From Pseudomonadota bacterium (lineage in GTDB: Bacteria > Pseudomonadota > Alphaproteobacteria > Micropepsales > Micropepsaceae): a DNA stretch of 64,000 bases. The position numbers were made by a program, and so were the translations under genes. The DNA lies in NCBI GenBank assembly GCA_016201105.1, contig JACQDN010000030.1, positions 1 to 64,000 of the forward strand. Reading direction: 5' to 3'. Positions 3,607 through 59,296 of this stretch are shown here, piece by piece (position 1 is the first letter of the stretch; each line of letters starts with the position of its first letter). Below the pieces are notes generated by a model. It did not search any database, was not told the DNA's origin, and saw only the letters and a list, made by a program, of their open reading frames with translations.

Positions 3607-3775
3607 CGTTTTCAAAAAAAGGAATGGTTCACGCGGAGACGCGGGCGCGCCTTGCGCGCCGCGGAGGCCGCGCAGAGAGCGGAGAAGACCGTTCCGGTAG
3701 AATTCCTCCCTTAGATGATTTTGGAATCGCTGACGCGCTTCGCGCGCCGAAGAAACTCTTGCCTTCAAACCAAAG
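3607..3775. repeat. Intergenic family C element and GC-rich palindromes
   Basis: GGTTCACGCGGAGACGCGG near 3628 belongs to family C, seen again near 10380, 25360, 34950 and 57570. It is followed by self-complementary GCGCGCC tracts (3645-3670 and 3735-3752). No coding signal is visible between the TPR gene and the DUF559 unit. Confidence 0.65.
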
Positions 3776-3829
3776 CTCTCTCCCTCTCCCCCCGCTTTAG
3801 CGGGGGAGAGGGCGGGGTGAGGGGGTCTC
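3776..3829. repeat. Left inverted repeat flanking the DUF559 gene (family A)
   Basis: This family A palindrome ends in GGGGGTCTC at 3821-3829. Its reverse complement matches 4260-4306 with only a few mismatches, so the two copies form a long inverted pair around the DUF559 gene. Confidence 0.85.
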
Positions 3830-3945
3830 GAAATTGAGCAAAACTGTCGCCAAATAGAGCGCTGACAGAAGTTGTTACAAAACTCGCCGTTCGTACGGAA
3901 AAGAAGCGTTCCTCGCGCGCGCTCAATCGCGGACGCGCGCGTCAA

Positions 3946-4260
3946 ATGCGCCATGAACCCGTGGCAATGGAAAAGCTGTTCTGGTCCGAAGCCCGCAATC
4001 GCAAGCTCGGTGACTACAAGTTCAAGCGGCAGTTTTTGATCGGAAGCTACATCGTCGATTTCGTATGCGTGGAGCGTAAGCTGGTCGTTGAGCTTGATGG
4101 ACCGTTTCACCGCGACAAGATCAAATATGACGAAATGCGCGATGCGTATCTGCGCAGTGAAGGTTATCAGGTGATGCGGTTTTCGAATGTCGAGGCGAGT
4201 GATGATGTGGCGATGACGTTGACGATTGTGCTGCACGCGTTGCAATCGCGCCCAGCGTAG
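3946..4260 (+). CDS. DUF559 family endonuclease-like protein
   Basis: This is a 104-residue protein of the DUF559 family, related to very-short-patch-repair and PD-(D/E)xK nucleases. Visible signatures are EKLFW, a conserved RNR, the core FVCVERKLVVELDG with the acidic ELDG, and RDAYLRSEGYQVMRF near the C-terminus. The family is usually 110-130 residues. The frame stays open upstream to 3838 and encodes RGRARQMR, which resembles the family's usual N-terminus, so the ATG at 3946 may be internal or the original start lost. The stop codon overlaps the right inverted repeat. With no partner methylase nearby, a role tied to the flanking repeats is inferred; cellular function is unknown. Confidence 0.75.
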   Translation: MRHEPVAMEKLFWSEARNRKLGDYKFKRQFLIGSYIVDFVCVERKLVVELDGPFHRDKIKYDEMRDAYLRSEGYQVMRFSNVEASDDVAMTLTIVLHALQSRPA

Positions 4261-4306
4261 AGACCCCCTCACCCAGCCCTCTCCCCCGCTGAAGCGGGGT
4301 AGAGGG
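4260..4306. repeat. Right inverted repeat flanking the DUF559 gene (family A)
   Basis: It begins with GAGACCCCC at 4260, using the last base of the DUF559 stop codon, and mirrors the repeat at 3783-3829. Self-complementary GCGCGCGAAGCGCGCC follows at 4320-4336, echoing the tract left of the gene. Confidence 0.85.
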
Positions 4307-4360
4307 AGGAATTCATTTTGGCGCGCGAAGCGCGCCTGCGTGAATCCTTCTTTTCCTAAA

Positions 4361-5701: not shown

Positions 5702-5811
5702 CGTCATGGCCGGCCCCCGTGCCGGCCACCCATGAACACCCTGTTTGATCAGCTGCGCACTATTTTCGACATCGCGATCATGGGTGGCCGGGACAAGCCC
5801 GGCCATGACGA
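5702..5811. repeat. Family D long palindrome
   Basis: The outer arms CGTCATGGCCGG and CCGGCCATGACG are perfect inverted repeats, with inner GCCGGCCACCC/GGGTGGCCGG. A second copy of the same structure lies at 10437-10545. It sits between rppH and the divergent deacetylase gene. Confidence 0.85.
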
Positions 5812-5896
5812 ATTTTTTTGAATTGTACATTAAGCAACTCGAACTTTCTTGGTTGATGCACAAAGCAGCACGAACCTTTTTACATTCAAACCAGCT

Positions 5897-7231: not shown

Positions 7232-7490
7232 GGAAATTCCACCCTCCCCTTGCCGCCTCCGCTAAAGCTACGGCGTGCCTTGAGCTATTTCCTTGCCGCG
7301 CCGAAGCGAAGCGTAGGCGGGAGGGAGGGTCGAAATCTTTGCGAACGAAGTGAGCGGAGATTTCGGGGAGGGGTCATGCCGTGTCGCATGAGTTGAGCGC
7401 ACTGAGTAGCTGGCGCGTCATCTTAAAGGCCGCGGCATGACCCCTCCCCGAAGCGCTTCGCGCTTCGACCCTCCCTCAAGGGGAGGGTAG
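7232..7490. repeat. Intergenic block of family B repeats
   Basis: Inverted CACCCTCCCCTT and AAGGGGAGGGTAG arms border a block that also contains GGGAGGGTCGAAATC, GATTTCGGGGAGGGGTCATG and the reciprocal CATGACCCCTCCCCGAA. A self-complementary GAAGCGCTTCGCGCTTC lies at 7450-7466. No gene is seen between 7187 and 7551. Confidence 0.8.
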
Positions 7491-7500
7491 TTATCAAACA

Positions 7501-10337: not shown

Positions 10338-10376
10338 TTCCGTCGATGGTTGAATCGGTGGAGAGAAAGAAAGAAG

Positions 10377-10592
10377 GATTCACGCGGAGACGCGGAGCCG
10401 CGGAGTTTCTCGAAGCTTCGCCAATTTAAAAGATTCGTCATGGCCGGCCCCCGTGCCGGCCACCCAGGAACACCCATGTTGATCGTTTCGCGTGAACCTA
10501 TTCGCATCGAGATCATGGGCGGCCGGGACAAGCCCGGCCATGACGGATGTTTGGACTGGTGAAGAACTAAGAACTCCGCGGCTCCGCGCGAG
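10377..10592. repeat. Nested composite repeat (family C arms around a family D palindrome)
   Basis: GATTCACGCGGAGACGCGGA near 10379 is mirrored by CCGCGGCTCCGCGCGAG near 10573, and between them lies the family D palindrome at 10437-10545. The whole region between envC and gpmA is thus a palindrome within a palindrome. Confidence 0.8.
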
Positions 10593-11421: not shown

Positions 11422-11570
11422 TCCACCTCCCCCTTGTGGGGAGGTCGGCGCTCGGCGCGAAGCGACGAGCCGCCGGGTGGGGGAAGTCGCTTGCACCGGT
11501 GCACTCACTGCCCCCACCCGCTGATGCTCGCTTCGCTCGCACAGCGACCTCCCCACAAGGGGGAGGTGGA
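11422..11570. repeat. Long inverted repeat, family E
   Basis: The 25-bp arms at 11422-11446 and 11546-11570 are perfect reverse complements (core CCTCCCCCTTGTGGGGAGG), separated by about 100 bases that include AGCGACGAG and CTCGCTTCGCTCGC tracts. It lies between divergent gpmA and flgI. Confidence 0.88.
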
Positions 11571-25282: not shown

Positions 25283-25352
25283 GGGGAGAAATCCTTGGGC
25301 GGCGGAGAATATCACTGCGCCGTGCAGGGGTGTGACAGCAGAAGAAGGAAAA

Positions 25353-25672
25353 AGATCGGTTCACGCGGAGGCGCGGAGACGCGGAGGTTCGAGTGCAAGT
25401 TTGAAGAGCGGATATCGGTAGTTTGGCTGGCGCGCTTTGCGCGCCGATCATCCGATTGTCATCCCGGAGCGAGCGGCATCAGCCGCGAGACCCGGGACCC
25501 ATTGCGACATGTCTCGGTGGGTCCCGGCTCTGCGCGTTGCTGCGCAACGCTTGGCCGGGATGACAATAGAGTTTATCGGCGCGCAAAGCGCGCCAGCCAA
25601 ATCACCAGGAGCGGTATTTCAAACTTGCTCCAACCTCCGCGTCTCCGCGTCTCCGCGTGAATCCCTTACTTT
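25353..25672. repeat. Nested composite repeat (family C arms, GC palindromes, family F centre)
   Basis: GGTTCACGCGGAGGCGCGGA near 25360 is mirrored by CTCCGCGTCTCCGCGTGAA near 25650. Inside, TTGGCTGGCGCGCTTTGCGC (about 25421) is mirrored near 25580-25605. The centre (25458-25567) begins TGTCATCCCGG and ends CCGGGATGACA with inner GGGTCCCGG arms. Three palindromes are nested in the space between the GFA and MFS genes; no gene is seen there. Confidence 0.85.
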
Positions 25673-34906: not shown

Positions 34907-35133
34907 GGAGCTTTTTTGGGTTCTTGCTGGGGAGTTAGAAAAAGAAATGGTTCACGCGGAGACGCGGGCGCGCTGCTGGCGCGCCGCGGAGGTCACAGGT
35001 TCAGGCACATTCACGTACAGCGCAACTCTCTGCTATCTGGTTGGCGCGCTTTGCGCGCCGAAACAAATTGCGAAGTGCGCGAAAGGCCACAACAAACTCG
35101 ACACCTCCGCGGCTCCGCGTGAACCTTTCTTCT
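34907..35133. repeat. Family C inverted pair with GC palindromes
   Basis: GGTTCACGCGGAGACGCGGG near 34950 is mirrored by CCTCCGCGGCTCCGCGTGAA near 35103. Between them lie GGCGCGC-TGCTG-GCGCGCC and TTGGCGCGCTTTGCGCGCC hairpins. No gene is seen. Confidence 0.8.
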
Positions 35134-41584: not shown

Positions 41585-41763
41585 TACCCTCCCTCGGGAG
41601 GGTCGAATTTTCATGCGAACGAAGTGAGCAGGGAAATTCGGGGAGGGGTCGTGCCCAGACTCCTCTGTGCTCGCGCCAACGTTGAACCACGAACTCAACC
41701 GACACAGCATGACCCCTCCCCGAAATCGCTTCGCGATTTCGACCCTCCATCAAGGGGAGGGTG
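41585..41763. repeat. Family B inverted repeats between divergent genes
   Basis: CTACCCTCCCTCGGGAGGG (41585) opens and CAAGGGGAGGGTGG (41751) closes a block that also has inverted GAAATTCGGGGAGGGGTC and GACCCCTCCCCGAAATCGC. This fills most of the space between the FlaEY-like gene and the TPR glycosyltransferase gene. Confidence 0.8.
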
Positions 41764-41781
41764 GACCGCGCGCCAACGTGC

Positions 41782-41820: not shown

Positions 41821-43368
41821 ATGAACGCGCCCGCGTCTTTGTCTTCGGCAGATTACGAGCACGGCCTTCGCCTTTCGGCTGACGGCAGACACAGCGAAGC
41901 CATTGCGCGCTTCGAGCGGGCTCTTGCTCTCAAACCCGACGACGTGCGCGTGCTCTTTGCACTCGGCAATACCGCGCGAGCCTTGGGGCTCGCCAAACCG
42001 GCCGAAGAATTCTTTCGCCGCGTACTCACGGCGGAGCCCGAACGGCTCGAGGCCCTCGTCAATCTGGCGAATCTGCTGCGCGCGCGCGGCGATGCGCAGG
42101 CCGCGATCGCGCTGCTTTTGCCGGCCGCGCAACGCAATCCCGAAAGCGCCGAATTGTGGCTCACGCTGGGATCGGCTTACCGCGAGCGCGGCGAGAGAAC
42201 CGAAGCCGAAGCGTTTTATCGCGAAGCCCTGGCGCGGCGTCCCGATTATTCCGCGGCGCTGGGCAATCTCGCCGATCTTGTCGCCGATCAAGGCGAGATC
42301 GATACGGCGCTTGAACTTTACGATCGCGCACTGAAGCGCGAGCCGGATAACGCGCAGGCCAAGCTCAATCGCGCGGTGTTGCATCTGCTGAAGGGCAACC
42401 TGAAAGACGGTTGGCGCGATTACGCGAGCCGCCTCAAGGTTCCCGGCAAGGCGCCGCTGTGCAATCACGGCCTGCCGCGCTGGGACGGGCACACTGTCAA
42501 GCGCAAGAGGCTGCTGATCACTACGGAACAAGGCATCGGCGACCAAGTGATGTTCGCGAGCCTGTTCGGTGAACTCGCCGCCCGCGCGGAGACCGAAGGC
42601 GGCAGCATTCTGCTGGAATGCGAACCAAGGCTCGTGACACTGTTCGCGCGCTCGTTTGCGAATATCACGGTGAAGCCCTGTCACGTGCAGAACAAAGGCG
42701 GCGCGACGGTTGCGGACTACGCCTGGCTAAAGAGCGCCGGCGGTGCCAATACGGCGATCGAAATGGGAAGCCTGCCGCGGTTGATGCGCGGCGATATCGC
42801 GAAATTTTCCGCGCCGCACGTCTATCTGGCGCCCGATGCGCAGGAGAAAGCGCGTTGGCGAAAGACGTTTGAGGCAGCCGGAGAAGGACCGTCTGTCGGC
42901 ATCTGCTGGCGCAGCGGCAAGAGCGGCGGTGGGCGCACAATTCAGTATGCGCCGCTGACGGCCTGGGCGGACTTCCTGCGCGAGCTGCCGGGCGCGATCG
43001 TCAGCGTGCAATACGATGCGACGGTGGAAGAGATCGCGGAGCTCGAACGTCTGAGCGGACGCAAGATCATCGTGCCCAATGGCATCGATCAGAAACTGGA
43101 ACTGGATCGTGCCTGCTCATTGCTGTCGGCGCTCGATGGCGTCGTGAGCGCGCCGACCGCGGTGTCGTGGCTTGCCGCGGCGGCGGGAACGCCGACCTAT
43201 AAAGTGCTCTACGACACGAGCTGGACGAGCTTCGGCAGCGGCTATGAGCCCTTTGCGCCGGCCTGTGTCTGCGTGATGCCCGAGAGCGCGGGCGATTGGG
43301 CGGATGTGTTTGGGAAGGTGTTGGCGGCTATCAATCTTCCTCCCCCGCCGTTGCGGGGGAGGTGCTGA
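41821..43368 (+). CDS. TPR-repeat glycosyltransferase-like protein (FlmG-like)
   Basis: The 515-residue protein has about six N-terminal TPR units (residues 8-205, each with A/G/F positions such as LFALGNTARALGLAKPAEEFF) and a C-terminal GT-B-like domain with LLITTEQGIGDQVMFASLFGEL, VGICWRSGKSGG, and DGVVSAPTAVSWLAAAAGTP. The same plan occurs in the gene at 61384 (EQGLGDEFMFA). Caulobacter FlmG, a TPR glycosyltransferase, modifies flagellin; the position beside flagellin-sugar genes supports a similar role. The last ten codons (NLPPPPLRGRC) are encoded by a palindromic repeat. A GTG at 41803 is an alternative start. Cytoplasmic. Confidence 0.75.
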   Translation: MNAPASLSSADYEHGLRLSADGRHSEAIARFERALALKPDDVRVLFALGNTARALGLAKPAEEFFRRVLTAEPERLEALVNLANLLRARGDAQAAIALLLPAAQRNPESAELWLTLGSAYRERGERTEAEAFYREALARRPDYSAALGNLADLVADQGEIDTALELYDRALKREPDNAQAKLNRAVLHLLKGNLKDGWRDYASRLKVPGKAPLCNHGLPRWDGHTVKRKRLLITTEQGIGDQVMFASLFGELAARAETEGGSILLECEPRLVTLFARSFANITVKPCHVQNKGGATVADYAWLKSAGGANTAIEMGSLPRLMRGDIAKFSAPHVYLAPDAQEKARWRKTFEAAGEGPSVGICWRSGKSGGGRTIQYAPLTAWADFLRELPGAIVSVQYDATVEEIAELERLSGRKIIVPNGIDQKLELDRACSLLSALDGVVSAPTAVSWLAAAAGTPTYKVLYDTSWTSFGSGYEPFAPACVCVMPESAGDWADVFGKVLAAINLPPPPLRGRC

Positions 43369-43509
43369 GCGAGCCCTTTGCGAGCGAAGCGGAGGGGGTG
43401 GCGGGAAATTCGACGGACAATCGCGATTACCCTTCGCGTCTATCGTCACCCCCTCCGTCATCCGCGCGTTGCGCGGATGACACCTCCCCCGCAACGGCGG
43501 GGGAGGAAG
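43336..43509. repeat. Long family E inverted repeat overlapping a gene end
   Basis: The 29-bp arms (43336-43364 and 43481-43509) are perfect reverse complements, each itself a hairpin (CCTCCCCCGCCGTTGCGGGG). Inner arms CCCCCTCCGTC and GCGGAGGGGGTG also pair. The left arm is translated as the tail of the TPR gene; the right arm ends 4 bases before the minus-strand fusion gene's stop. Confidence 0.85.
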
Positions 43510-43513
43510 ATGA

Positions 43514-53144: not shown

Positions 53145-55138
53145 ACGCGCCATTTCTTCAACGTGAGGCAATCGCCGCGGGCGGTACGCTGCATCTCTAC
53201 GCCGCGTTCCATCTCAATCTCGCGTTCTCCTCCATCGAGGAGGAACAACGCGGCGAGGTGATCAAGCGCTGCTATTGGCCGCTTTTGGATCTCGCCTGCA
53301 AGCACGGCCCCATCGGCATCGAAGCCACCGGCTTCACGCTGGAGGAAATCTTGGCTCGCGATCCCGAATGGATCGGACGCTTGCGCTCGCTGATTGCGCG
53401 CGGGCGCGTCGAACTCATCGGCTCGGGCTATGCGCAGATCATCGGGCCGCTGGTGCCGGCGCGGGTGACAGAGGAAAATCTCAAGATCGGCAACGAGATC
53501 TATCAACGTCTCCTGCGCGCCAAACCAACCCTGGCGCTGGTCAACGAGCAGGCCTATTCGGCCGGTCTGGTCGAACTCTATCGCGACGCCGGCTACCGGG
53601 CGGTGCTGATGGATTGGGACAATCCGGGCGTGCAACATCCGGAATGGCCGAGTGAAACACGCTATCTTCCGCAGCGCGCCAAGGGGGTGAGCGGCGAGTC
53701 GATCGGCCTTCTGTGGACCAGCACGGTCGCGTTCCAGAAATTGCAGCGCTTCGTTCATGGCGACATCGCGCTGGAGGAATATCTCGAACACACCCGTTCG
53801 CGGCGCGGGCGCGATGCGCGCGCGCTTTGCGTCTACGCCAGCGACGGCGAGATCTTCGATTTTCGTCCTGGGCGCTATCGCACCGAGGAAACGCTATCGG
53901 ATAGCAGCGAATGGAAGCGGCTGAACGAAGCCTTTGCCGCTTTGCGCAACGAAGCGAACATGAGGCTGATGCTTCCCAGCGAAGCCCTGGAATTGAACGG
54001 GCTTGCCGATGCCGACCAGGCGCTGCATCTGCAATCGGCTGAATGCCCCGTGCCGGTCAAGAAGCAGCGCAAATACAATCTCTCGCGCTGGGCGGTCACC
54101 GGCCGCGACGACATCGCCGTCAATGCGGCGTGTCAGCGGATCTATGAAGCGCTCGCTGCCAGCAATGCCGGCAGCGGGGCCTGGAAAGAGTTGTGCGGAT
54201 TGTGGGCCAGCGATTTCCGCACGCATATCACGCAGAAGCGGTGGGCAAAGTTTTGCGAACAACTGAAAGCGGCGGAGGCTCGCTTTTGTATTGCGCCTTC
54301 TCCGTCACCACCCCCTCACCCCGCCCTCTCCCCCTGCGGGGGCGAGGGAGAGCGTTTCATTCTTGTAGAAACCCCTACGCTTTCTGCGCGCCTCGATCGG
54401 CGTCGCGGGCTGGCGATTGAGAGTTTGCGCTTTGCGGGTCATGAGCAGGCGGCCGTCGGCGGCTTGCCGCACGGGCATTTCGACGACATCGCGCTGCAGG
54501 CCGACTGGTATACCGGCGACTGCGTCTTCGAAGCACCGGGCGAGCACAAGATCACCGATCTGGAATGGTGCGAGGCGCGGGTTTGGACGGAAGCCAATGG
54601 CGATGTGGTCGCCTGCGCCAAAATCGAAACGGCCAAAGGCCCGATCGAAAAGACGTTGCGCTTTCTGGCAAACGCGCCGCGCGTCGAATTCGACATCGTC
54701 TTTCATTGGCAGGATTGGGGACGCGGCAGTTTGCGTCTCGGACACATCACGCTGCTGCCCGACGCCTTCGAGTGGACGAAGCTTTCCTTAACGACGCACA
54801 ATGGCGGTAAGGAAGCGGAAACCTTTTCGCTTAACGGCGCGACGGTCGAGCACGGCGCGCCGGTGTCGTTTCTCGTCTCTTCCTCCTTCGGCCTTGGAAT
54901 GACGGAAGGTTGGGCCGAGCTGGGCGACACCAAGACTCGTGTTCGCGTCGACGTGGACCGCAAGACGGCGCCGCTGCTGGGCCTCCTGACGCACAAACGC
55001 ATCGGCGGCAGCCTGTTCTGCCAGTTGATGCTCTCCGCTTTGGAACTCGACGAAACGCGCAAGCCCGCGCCCTATTGCGACGGCGCTCGCCGCTTCCGGT
55101 TTGGTATCTCCGCCGCGGCCAAATCCACCGATCATTAA
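53141..55138 (+). CDS. GH57-like glycoside hydrolase with an in-frame palindrome insertion
   Basis: The 665-residue protein resembles family 57 glycosidases: HLYAAFHLNLAF at the N-terminus, then GIEATGFTLEEIL, RGRVELIGSGYAQIIGPL, and LALVNEQAYSAGLV with a candidate catalytic Glu. The C-terminal half (about 400-660) is beta-rich (DIALQADWYTGDCVFEAPGEH). Residues about 386-405 (SPSPPPHPALSPCGGEGER) are encoded by a family A palindrome and interrupt the join between halves without breaking the frame. ATGA overlap with the ATP-grasp gene. The role may be editing or trimming an oligosaccharide, or a lyase-type reaction. Confidence 0.7.
   Translation: MNAPFLQREAIAAGGTLHLYAAFHLNLAFSSIEEEQRGEVIKRCYWPLLDLACKHGPIGIEATGFTLEEILARDPEWIGRLRSLIARGRVELIGSGYAQIIGPLVPARVTEENLKIGNEIYQRLLRAKPTLALVNEQAYSAGLVELYRDAGYRAVLMDWDNPGVQHPEWPSETRYLPQRAKGVSGESIGLLWTSTVAFQKLQRFVHGDIALEEYLEHTRSRRGRDARALCVYASDGEIFDFRPGRYRTEETLSDSSEWKRLNEAFAALRNEANMRLMLPSEALELNGLADADQALHLQSAECPVPVKKQRKYNLSRWAVTGRDDIAVNAACQRIYEALAASNAGSGAWKELCGLWASDFRTHITQKRWAKFCEQLKAAEARFCIAPSPSPPPHPALSPCGGEGERFILVETPTLSARLDRRRGLAIESLRFAGHEQAAVGGLPHGHFDDIALQADWYTGDCVFEAPGEHKITDLEWCEARVWTEANGDVVACAKIETAKGPIEKTLRFLANAPRVEFDIVFHWQDWGRGSLRLGHITLLPDAFEWTKLSLTTHNGGKEAETFSLNGATVEHGAPVSFLVSSSFGLGMTEGWAELGDTKTRVRVDVDRKTAPLLGLLTHKRIGGSLFCQLMLSALELDETRKPAPYCDGARRFRFGISAAAKSTDH
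54306..54354. repeat. Family A palindrome inside a coding sequence
   Basis: CCCCCTCACCCCGCCCTCTC followed by CCCCTGCGGGGGCGAGGGAG is a family A unit like those at 98, 3776 and 4260. It is 49 bases long and read through in frame. Confidence 0.85.
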
Positions 55139-58999: not shown

Positions 59000-59140
59000 A
59001 GGTGTTTTTACCGTTGGCTAACTTTCATTTTCGGGATCGAGGTTGGAAATCTTGCCTAGCGCGAAACTGCAGCGCGCCGAATTTGCCCGGCAGCTCTTGC
59101 CGGAGGTGGGAATTTTTTGCCGGATGTTCTAGGCAGAAAT

Positions 59141-59281
59141 TTCCACCCTCCCTTGGGAGGGTCGAAAAATTCGCGAGCGTCCGCGAGTGGATTTTACGGG
59201 GAGGATCAGGACGAGATATCTCCTTCGGCATCATCCCCGAATTTGCTTCACAAATTCGACCCTCCCAAGGGAGGGTGGTAG
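59141..59281. repeat. Family B inverted repeat between the flagellin genes
   Basis: TTCCACCCTCCCTTGGGAGG and CCTCCCAAGGGAGGGTGGTA are outer inverted arms; inner GAATTTGCTTCACAAATTC is a hairpin. It lies between the sigma-54 promoter of copy 1 and the terminator of copy 2. Confidence 0.8.
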
Positions 59282-59296
59282 TTCCGCTCAAAACGA

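Follow-up and report, generated by a model that had tools for sequence, protein, structure and literature searches.

The DUF559 gene of the window (the whole stretch of DNA analyzed, 64,000 nucleotides long) and the two inverted palindromes that enclose it probably form a two-part unit. A gene for a Vsr-like nuclease would have two inverted repeats of the triplex type as its ends, and the dispersed gene-less copies of such repeats would be its non-autonomous followers; we give this reading a probability of roughly 0.6. DUF559 is best read, by analogy, as the candidate trans-acting nuclease of these repeats, with a RAYT-like role and an unrelated fold. The basis of the analogy is the palindrome nuclease of the RAYT/REP model, as outlined in the available text of Nunvar 2010 (PMC2817692).

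The left flanking repeat, a family A copy found by repeat search and alignment (3782–3829, + strand), contains a pyrimidine arm (3782–3793), a purine arm (3802–3812) and a third, mirror arm that faces the gene, GGGGTGAGGGGG at 3814–3825, with TCTC next to it. The gene for the PD-(D/E)XK, Vsr-like nuclease occupies 3838–4260 on the + strand and was assigned to DUF559 through Pfam PF04480 and its predicted fold. The right flanking repeat is an inverted family A copy recognized in the same way (4260–4306, − strand), with the complement of the third arm at 4264–4274, that of the purine arm at 4277–4287 and the outer arm, which has one mismatch, at 4296–4306. The earlier note had the gene exactly bracketed by inverted copies of the family and placed the first base of the right copy on the final base of the stop codon; both statements were borne out. 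The two copies are separated by 430 nt: the left one runs up to 3829, and the right one begins at 4260, the final base of the TAG at 4258–4260. The repeat search of the window aligned 3790–3829 with 4260–4299 as an inverted match of 40 nt that is 95% complementary. When the 400-nt upstream and downstream flanks were aligned, the unit received an inverted-repeat score of 36, and the best of 781 controls scored 21.

The frame of the gene is open from 3838, the first codon past an upstream stop, and its first ATG lies at 3946. The true start is unsure because none of the codons ATG, GTG and TTG occurs in frame from 3838 to 3946 (the 36 codons upstream of the first ATG). Read from 3838, the frame matches Pfam DUF559 (PF04480) with 115.8 bits, and a start at ATG 3946 would leave out five residues at the beginning of this match.

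Repeats of these families are also found in the window away from the gene. Further family A units had been noticed before, including one within a gene, and the repeat search recovered them as solitary units on the − strand at 96–135 and 54310–54349. The second of these, for which relatives were also compared, lies within an 878-aa open frame and is translated in frame; the linker at this place varies in length among relatives. Gene-less inverted pairs, also found by repeat search and given without a strand, belong to type B (11422–11570), type C (7359–7491, with the tails and the right hairpin but without a perfect left hairpin, and 41586–41765), type D (43334–43511) and a type C-like kind (59138–59283). 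Many of the listed gene-less copies form inverted pairs with a spacing of roughly 90 to 190 bp. The source genome as a whole has 135 pattern matches of type C and 84 of type B, a site that matches on both strands being counted twice, and the reversed control pattern for the type B/C search gave 0 matches in every genome. Another dispersed family, TTCACGCGGAGACGCGG, is present in the window at 3616–3650, 10367–10401, 25348–25382 and 34939–34973, and has inverted partners at other places in the window; one of its copies sits just outside the DUF559 unit.

The window unit is one of many. In the source genome (3.85 Mb in 84 contigs) eight genes match DUF559 strongly, and a further, weak match lies within a long frame. 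All eight strong genes are enclosed by inverted palindromes, which belong to four repeat families and score from 18 to 97. Across the order, 73 of 96 genomes have DUF559, and 137 loci were used of at least 150 matches; 13 listed ones were left aside, ten of which were the weakest. The bracket noticed in the window recurs in these relatives, whose DUF559 genes are mostly flanked: the score is ≥14 in 110 of 134 scorable loci and ≥20 in 89 of them (L040, which has a short flank, L144 and L158 are without a score in this count). Among the first 76 DUF559 loci of the order the score is ≥20 in 54, against 3 of 781 control cores; these were placed elsewhere in the fetched loci and belong to the 76-locus set, with L040 left out.

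The inverted-repeat bracket of DUF559 genes reaches other phyla. Of the named loci, 62 of 79 score ≥14, against 9 of 871 controls. The named loci are the best 80 of 575 relatives found by a peptide pattern, less L265, which was dropped for a run of N, and the set includes Acinetobacter, Pirellulaceae, Gastranaerophilales, Nitrospira, Legionellaceae, and Bacteroidaceae. Some high scorers among them, such as L241, have repeats outside the C/T-rich kind. The rate is lower in an even draw across the phylum, in which 14 of 29 DUF559 loci score ≥14 (7 of 143 controls). RAYT-like genes also score high for inverted flanks (≥20 in 12 of 31), so the score alone is no test of specificity. One could suppose that palindrome-rich genomes make any short lone gene look flanked, and the window is rich in repeats, but only three of the 781 same-locus control cores reach 20 and none of nine GIY-YIG genes outside the small NGTLY subfamily reaches 14. 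Such a coincidence is extremely improbable. Chance or REP-rich surroundings as the cause of the bracket are ruled out by the same-locus controls (3/781; 9/871).

The earlier note had spoken of a dispersed palindrome, and an inverted repeat is present, but it is not one family and not a simple palindrome: at least eight repeat families were found, and the repeats have three arms. Each repeat consists of an outer hairpin, with a C/T-rich and a G/A-rich arm, and a G-rich tail directed toward the gene. In seven of eight types a second hairpin of variable sequence lies between arms two and three. The tail is a mirror of the purine arm, in which A may be T (G.GC, A.AT or T.AT), and the mirror is perfect in 106 of 139 instances. 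Perfect mirror tails are found in 8 of 8 instances of family A and in 0 of 4 of type I. The mean mirror scores of the types range from 0.67 to 1.00, as compared with 0.37 to 0.58 for shuffled tails.

In this architecture the DUF559 repeats are like the purine-motif intrastrand triplex motifs (TM, PIT), which also have a pyrimidine arm, a purine arm, and a third purine arm mirroring the second. According to the available text of Holder 2015 (PMC4666352), such motifs are widespread in bacteria and occur in inverted pairs, 23 of them were counted in E. coli, and an E. coli motif was reported to form a triplex in vitro; no mobility gene is reported there as a neighbor of the E. coli motifs. There are two differences. 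Here a DUF559 gene is enclosed by the repeats, unlike in the motifs as reported in that part of the paper (PMC4666352), and in seven of the eight DUF559 families the second, variable hairpin splits arms two and three.

Repeat type follows the DUF559 protein tree, and enzyme and palindrome change together. The types were labeled from the outer-hairpin DNA only and then mapped onto the tree of the DUF559 domain, which is short (107 columns) and has many open forks. In the first tree, 66 labeled rows of 8 types required 12 changes (minimum 7), against a mean of 43.8 after shuffling. The larger tree had 125 rows, of which 36 were unlabeled; 12 loci syntenic with another had been removed, and L043, whose two flanks differ in type, was left unlabeled. 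Its 89 labeled rows required 13 changes (minimum 7), with a shuffled mean of 57.9 and none of 200 shuffles as low. Where both flanks could be typed they agreed in 62 of 63 loci. Since each DUF559 branch tends to keep its own repeat type, the enzyme is suggested to help its repeat spread. The link between clade and type could also stem from joint descent of the gene and its ends, with the enzyme not acting on the dispersed copies.

The presence of a repeat type in a genome is likewise associated with a gene of that type. Copies of type C away from DUF559 genes are found in 12 of the 13 genomes that have a type C gene and in 30 of 83 others (p = 1.5e-4), and for type B the counts are 18 of 19 and 24 of 77 (p = 3.5e-7). 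For these tests matches within 400 nt of fetched DUF559 genes were removed and genomes were counted as independent; a genome was scored as lacking a type by its fetched genes, and may hold an unfetched one. Within the genus of the window, gene-distant copies of type C occur in 11 of 11 genomes with the gene and 27 of 58 others, and those of type B in 17 of 17 and 16 of 52. The repeats are not wholly confined to genomes with DUF559, and this tells in part against the earlier note, which had named spread without the gene as a refutation: of the 23 genomes without a DUF559 match, 16 carry neither type B nor type C, but 7 carry some.

Two genomes stand out as exceptions. In G048, which is rated 100% complete and consists of about 50 contigs, type C gave 183 matches, and the DUF559 found there is of type A only; the 100 of these matches that were listed are near-identical and mostly paired (sites on both strands counted twice). 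G065 has 38 type C matches, counted in the same way, and no DUF559 match. The type C repeats of both genomes are uniform and often paired, and neither genome has a RAYT match. A same-type gene therefore need not be present now. For G048, the gene may have been lost recently or be absent from the assembly; otherwise a different enzyme would serve the repeats.

A RAYT match was detected in 32 of the 96 genomes of the order, and 64 are without one. Beside 31 RAYT-like genes, the top inverted alignments involve sequences other than the DUF559 repeats. RAYT was accordingly rejected as the mover of the DUF559 repeats, given its presence in only 32 of 96 genomes and the other sequences at its flanks. 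The Y1 (RAYT-like) genes (L081–L109, L010, L011) are often flanked by inverted repeats of the GGGGTCAGAGTA and GGGGACACGATACATATT kinds.

These observations bear on the possibility that DUF559 is a passenger or homing parasite, a selfish gene that invades inverted pairs, and that the palindromes are moved otherwise, by RAYT, another transposase, or replication slippage. Gene-less inverted pairs are common, as such a history would predict, repeats persist in genomes in which no same-type gene was found, and the modeled fold appears close to that of the homing endonuclease I-Bth0305I. However, with matching flanks in 62 of 63 loci and the agreement of clade and type, each clade would need one preferred repeat family. 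RAYT is also lacking in the 64 genomes mentioned, which include the repeat-rich one-contig G017, G066, and G067, and where it is present its flanks hold other sequences. We consider a passenger gene unlikely. The proposal that a Vsr/DUF559-type nuclease plays the RAYT part for this repeat family, made in the earlier note, gains from the flanking repeats (110/134), the agreement of clade and type, the co-occurrence in genomes, the loss of similarity near the repeats, and the absence of RAYT from most genomes; it is weakened by repeats without a same-type gene (7 of the 23 genomes, and G048).

Homologous DUF559 genes mostly occupy unrelated sites, and their similarity ends near the repeats. Only 14 of 755 locus pairs with alignable DUF559 genes align for more than 250 nt past the domain. 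In L037 and L055, a close pair from one genome, similarity is lost at a distance of approximately 65 to 80 nt, near the position of the outer hairpins.

At the site of the window unit, the downstream neighbor and the next gene were found together in each of the 29 fetched relatives; 18 of these also have the upstream neighbor in view, and 11 do not. None of the 18 relatives with both neighbors in view has DUF559 between them. The gap between the neighbor genes (approximate lengths) is at most 61 bp in 12 of these relatives and 90 to 758 bp in the other six. Two relatives have other repeats at the same site, a gene-less type D pair in G067 and a CGTC-type pair in G065. Because none of the 18 relatives holds the gene and these two hold other pairs, the window unit was most likely gained there, in a spot that receives different repeats independently of one another. 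Loci empty in relatives, to which the earlier note had looked for a comparison, do exist as the 12 short gaps, but exact junctions did not follow from them: the insert at the window site is 760 bp long and includes other repeats too, so its exact ends were not read. Neither the neighbor-gene site nor the in-gene copy yielded a target duplication or a precise junction, the relatives being too diverged at the base level.

E14, D43, E54, D56, and H60 are kept in an alignment of 11 diverse DUF559 domains. In the window protein, E45, D74, E85, D87, and H91 are invariant in 28 rows that were recruited by a pattern around D74, itself part of the motif; the 11-row alignment was recruited without this pattern. 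These alignments show strong conservation of the putative catalytic residues (E, D, E-x-D, then H). The dN/dS ratio is 0.05 to 0.19 in 15 of 16 close DUF559 pairs, with synonymous sites near saturation, and the 16th pair is saturated. The predicted structure of the window protein has a mean pLDDT of 92.3. The solved structures nearest to the predicted fold are 3hrl (Z 15.3), the homing endonuclease I-Bth0305I (13.6), and Vsr (11.0), and TnsA of Tn7 is a weaker structural match (Z 6.6). In a Pfam search of the window gene DUF559 alone was above the cut-off, with no Y1/HUH domain (Pfam01797).

Other roles for DUF559 were considered. Cargo of plasmids was rejected with at least 44 matches in 72,556 plasmid records (several of them chromosome-sized), and cargo of phages with at least 3 in 50,697 phage records; the figures are lower bounds because each comes from a single query at 1e-5. 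Unlike ordinary mobile cargo, DUF559 was seldom found in either search. A defense role was set aside after no PADLOC family matched.

A repair function was also considered. The available text on Caulobacter VsrA, which has a DUF559 domain, describes an effect on the SOS/DNA-damage response in cells without a cytosine methylase and proposes a role in repair (PMC12907096). DUF559 might then act in repair as a very-short-patch or structure-specific nuclease, with the repeats as its substrates or as a source of its ribosome-binding site and their spread as a side effect. Besides the VsrA effect, two observations agree with this. In types B and C the G-rich third arm, or tail, immediately precedes the likely start codon and could act as a ribosome-binding site, and the E. 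coli full-length matches, among those listed, have ycjD at one place. Yet one would not expect to find a house-keeping gene at unrelated places where similarity stops close to the repeats, or in eight diverged copies with four repeat families in one genome. Repair as the explanation is decidedly improbable.

If DUF559 is the trans-acting nuclease of its repeats, as we prefer to read the data, the link between clade and type suggests that it would recognize its own repeat once the strand is exposed and the arms are folded. The nuclease would then nick or cut at the folded repeat, and host repair might place copies of the palindrome, either alone or together with the gene, at new intergenic positions. 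Such spread by breakage and copying would be nearer to homing than to classical transposition. We know of no strand-joining activity for the PD-(D/E)XK Vsr-like fold alone, and break-and-copy would therefore be more likely than cut-and-paste.

The unit has several features in common with the REPtron, as far as the latter is described in the available parts of PMC2817692 and PMC3733652. In both, a single nuclease gene lies between inverted palindromes, palindromes without the gene occur elsewhere as single copies and inverted pairs, and the nuclease and its palindrome coevolve. The presence of the palindrome may track that of the gene here too, significantly so for types B and C but with G048 and G065 as exceptions. 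They differ in their components: RAYT, according to the same sources, is a Y1/HUH enzyme (Pfam01797) associated with GT(A/G)G-headed REPs, whereas DUF559 is a PD-(D/E)XK protein (PF04480) with C/T-rich three-arm repeats. No GTAG-type head was seen in the window repeat or in the hairpins and tails of the families viewed. As in MITEs, short non-coding copies with inverted ends accompany a coding unit with the same ends, but the DUF559 gene is not a known transposase and a target duplication was not readable. The predicted fold is the same as that of I-Bth0305I and Vsr (Z 13.6 and 11.0). Unlike both, the DUF559 gene has its own palindromic ends, with no intron or intein seen, and unlike I-Bth0305I it is found at many unrelated sites and not at one conserved homing site.

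In E. coli, a query resembling the triplex motif has matches in 5358 of 5426 genomes, at a median of 14 places. The E. coli DUF559 protein YcjD was earlier assigned to the PD-(D/E)XK superfamily (PMC1189080, available text). In MG1655, ycjD has one motif 3′ of the gene and a degenerate one at the stop codon, and in another E. coli strain this place holds a three-arm motif with one arm mismatch. The hairpin on the 5′ side of ycjD is different, and E. coli is therefore a one-sided case. The 791-bp fabI–sapF interval of MG1655, which includes ycjD, is matched over at least 80% of its length in 3362 of 5426 E. coli genomes. In four fetched E. coli strains, in which the match stops beside fabI, an empty ycjD site was considered and rejected: a regulator gene and efflux genes are located there.

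A second pairing of this kind was encountered in small GIY-YIG genes with an NGTLY motif (loci L110–L139 and L347–L376), a family chosen first as control genes. In the order, inverted palindromes flank 18 of 21 of these genes and 0 of 9 other GIY-YIG genes. Across the phylum 25 of 30 score ≥14 and 23 of 30 score ≥20, with 4 of 188 and 0 of 188 controls, respectively. Many of their flanking repeats, for example CGTCATTCCCGCGAATGCGGGAATCCA, fit the description of CGTC REPs in the available text of Di Nocera 2013 (PMC3733652), in which these REPs are apparently without a dedicated transposase. Neither the pairing of DUF559 with triplex repeats nor that of GIY-YIG with CGTC REPs was found described in the literature, which was searched by title and abstract opening and with few subscription papers covered.

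It is about an even bet that bacterial palindromic repeats comprise several superfamilies, each with an unrelated nuclease: HUH (RAYT) with GTAG REPs, PD-(D/E)XK (DUF559) with intrastrand-triplex repeats, and GIY-YIG with CGTC REPs. If this is true, selfish elements made of a short palindrome and its own small nuclease would be of a general kind, with at least three origins, and the triplex motifs and the CGTC REPs would have their missing partners. DUF559 is widespread, and the sole proposal for its function so far is repair. If each repeat class is paired with a specific small nuclease, the questions raised become accessible to purified proteins and short oligonucleotides, and more than one origin of such palindrome–nuclease units would be demonstrated. 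The window itself also contains gene-less pairs of the CGTC type, at 5702–5817 and 10436–10552.
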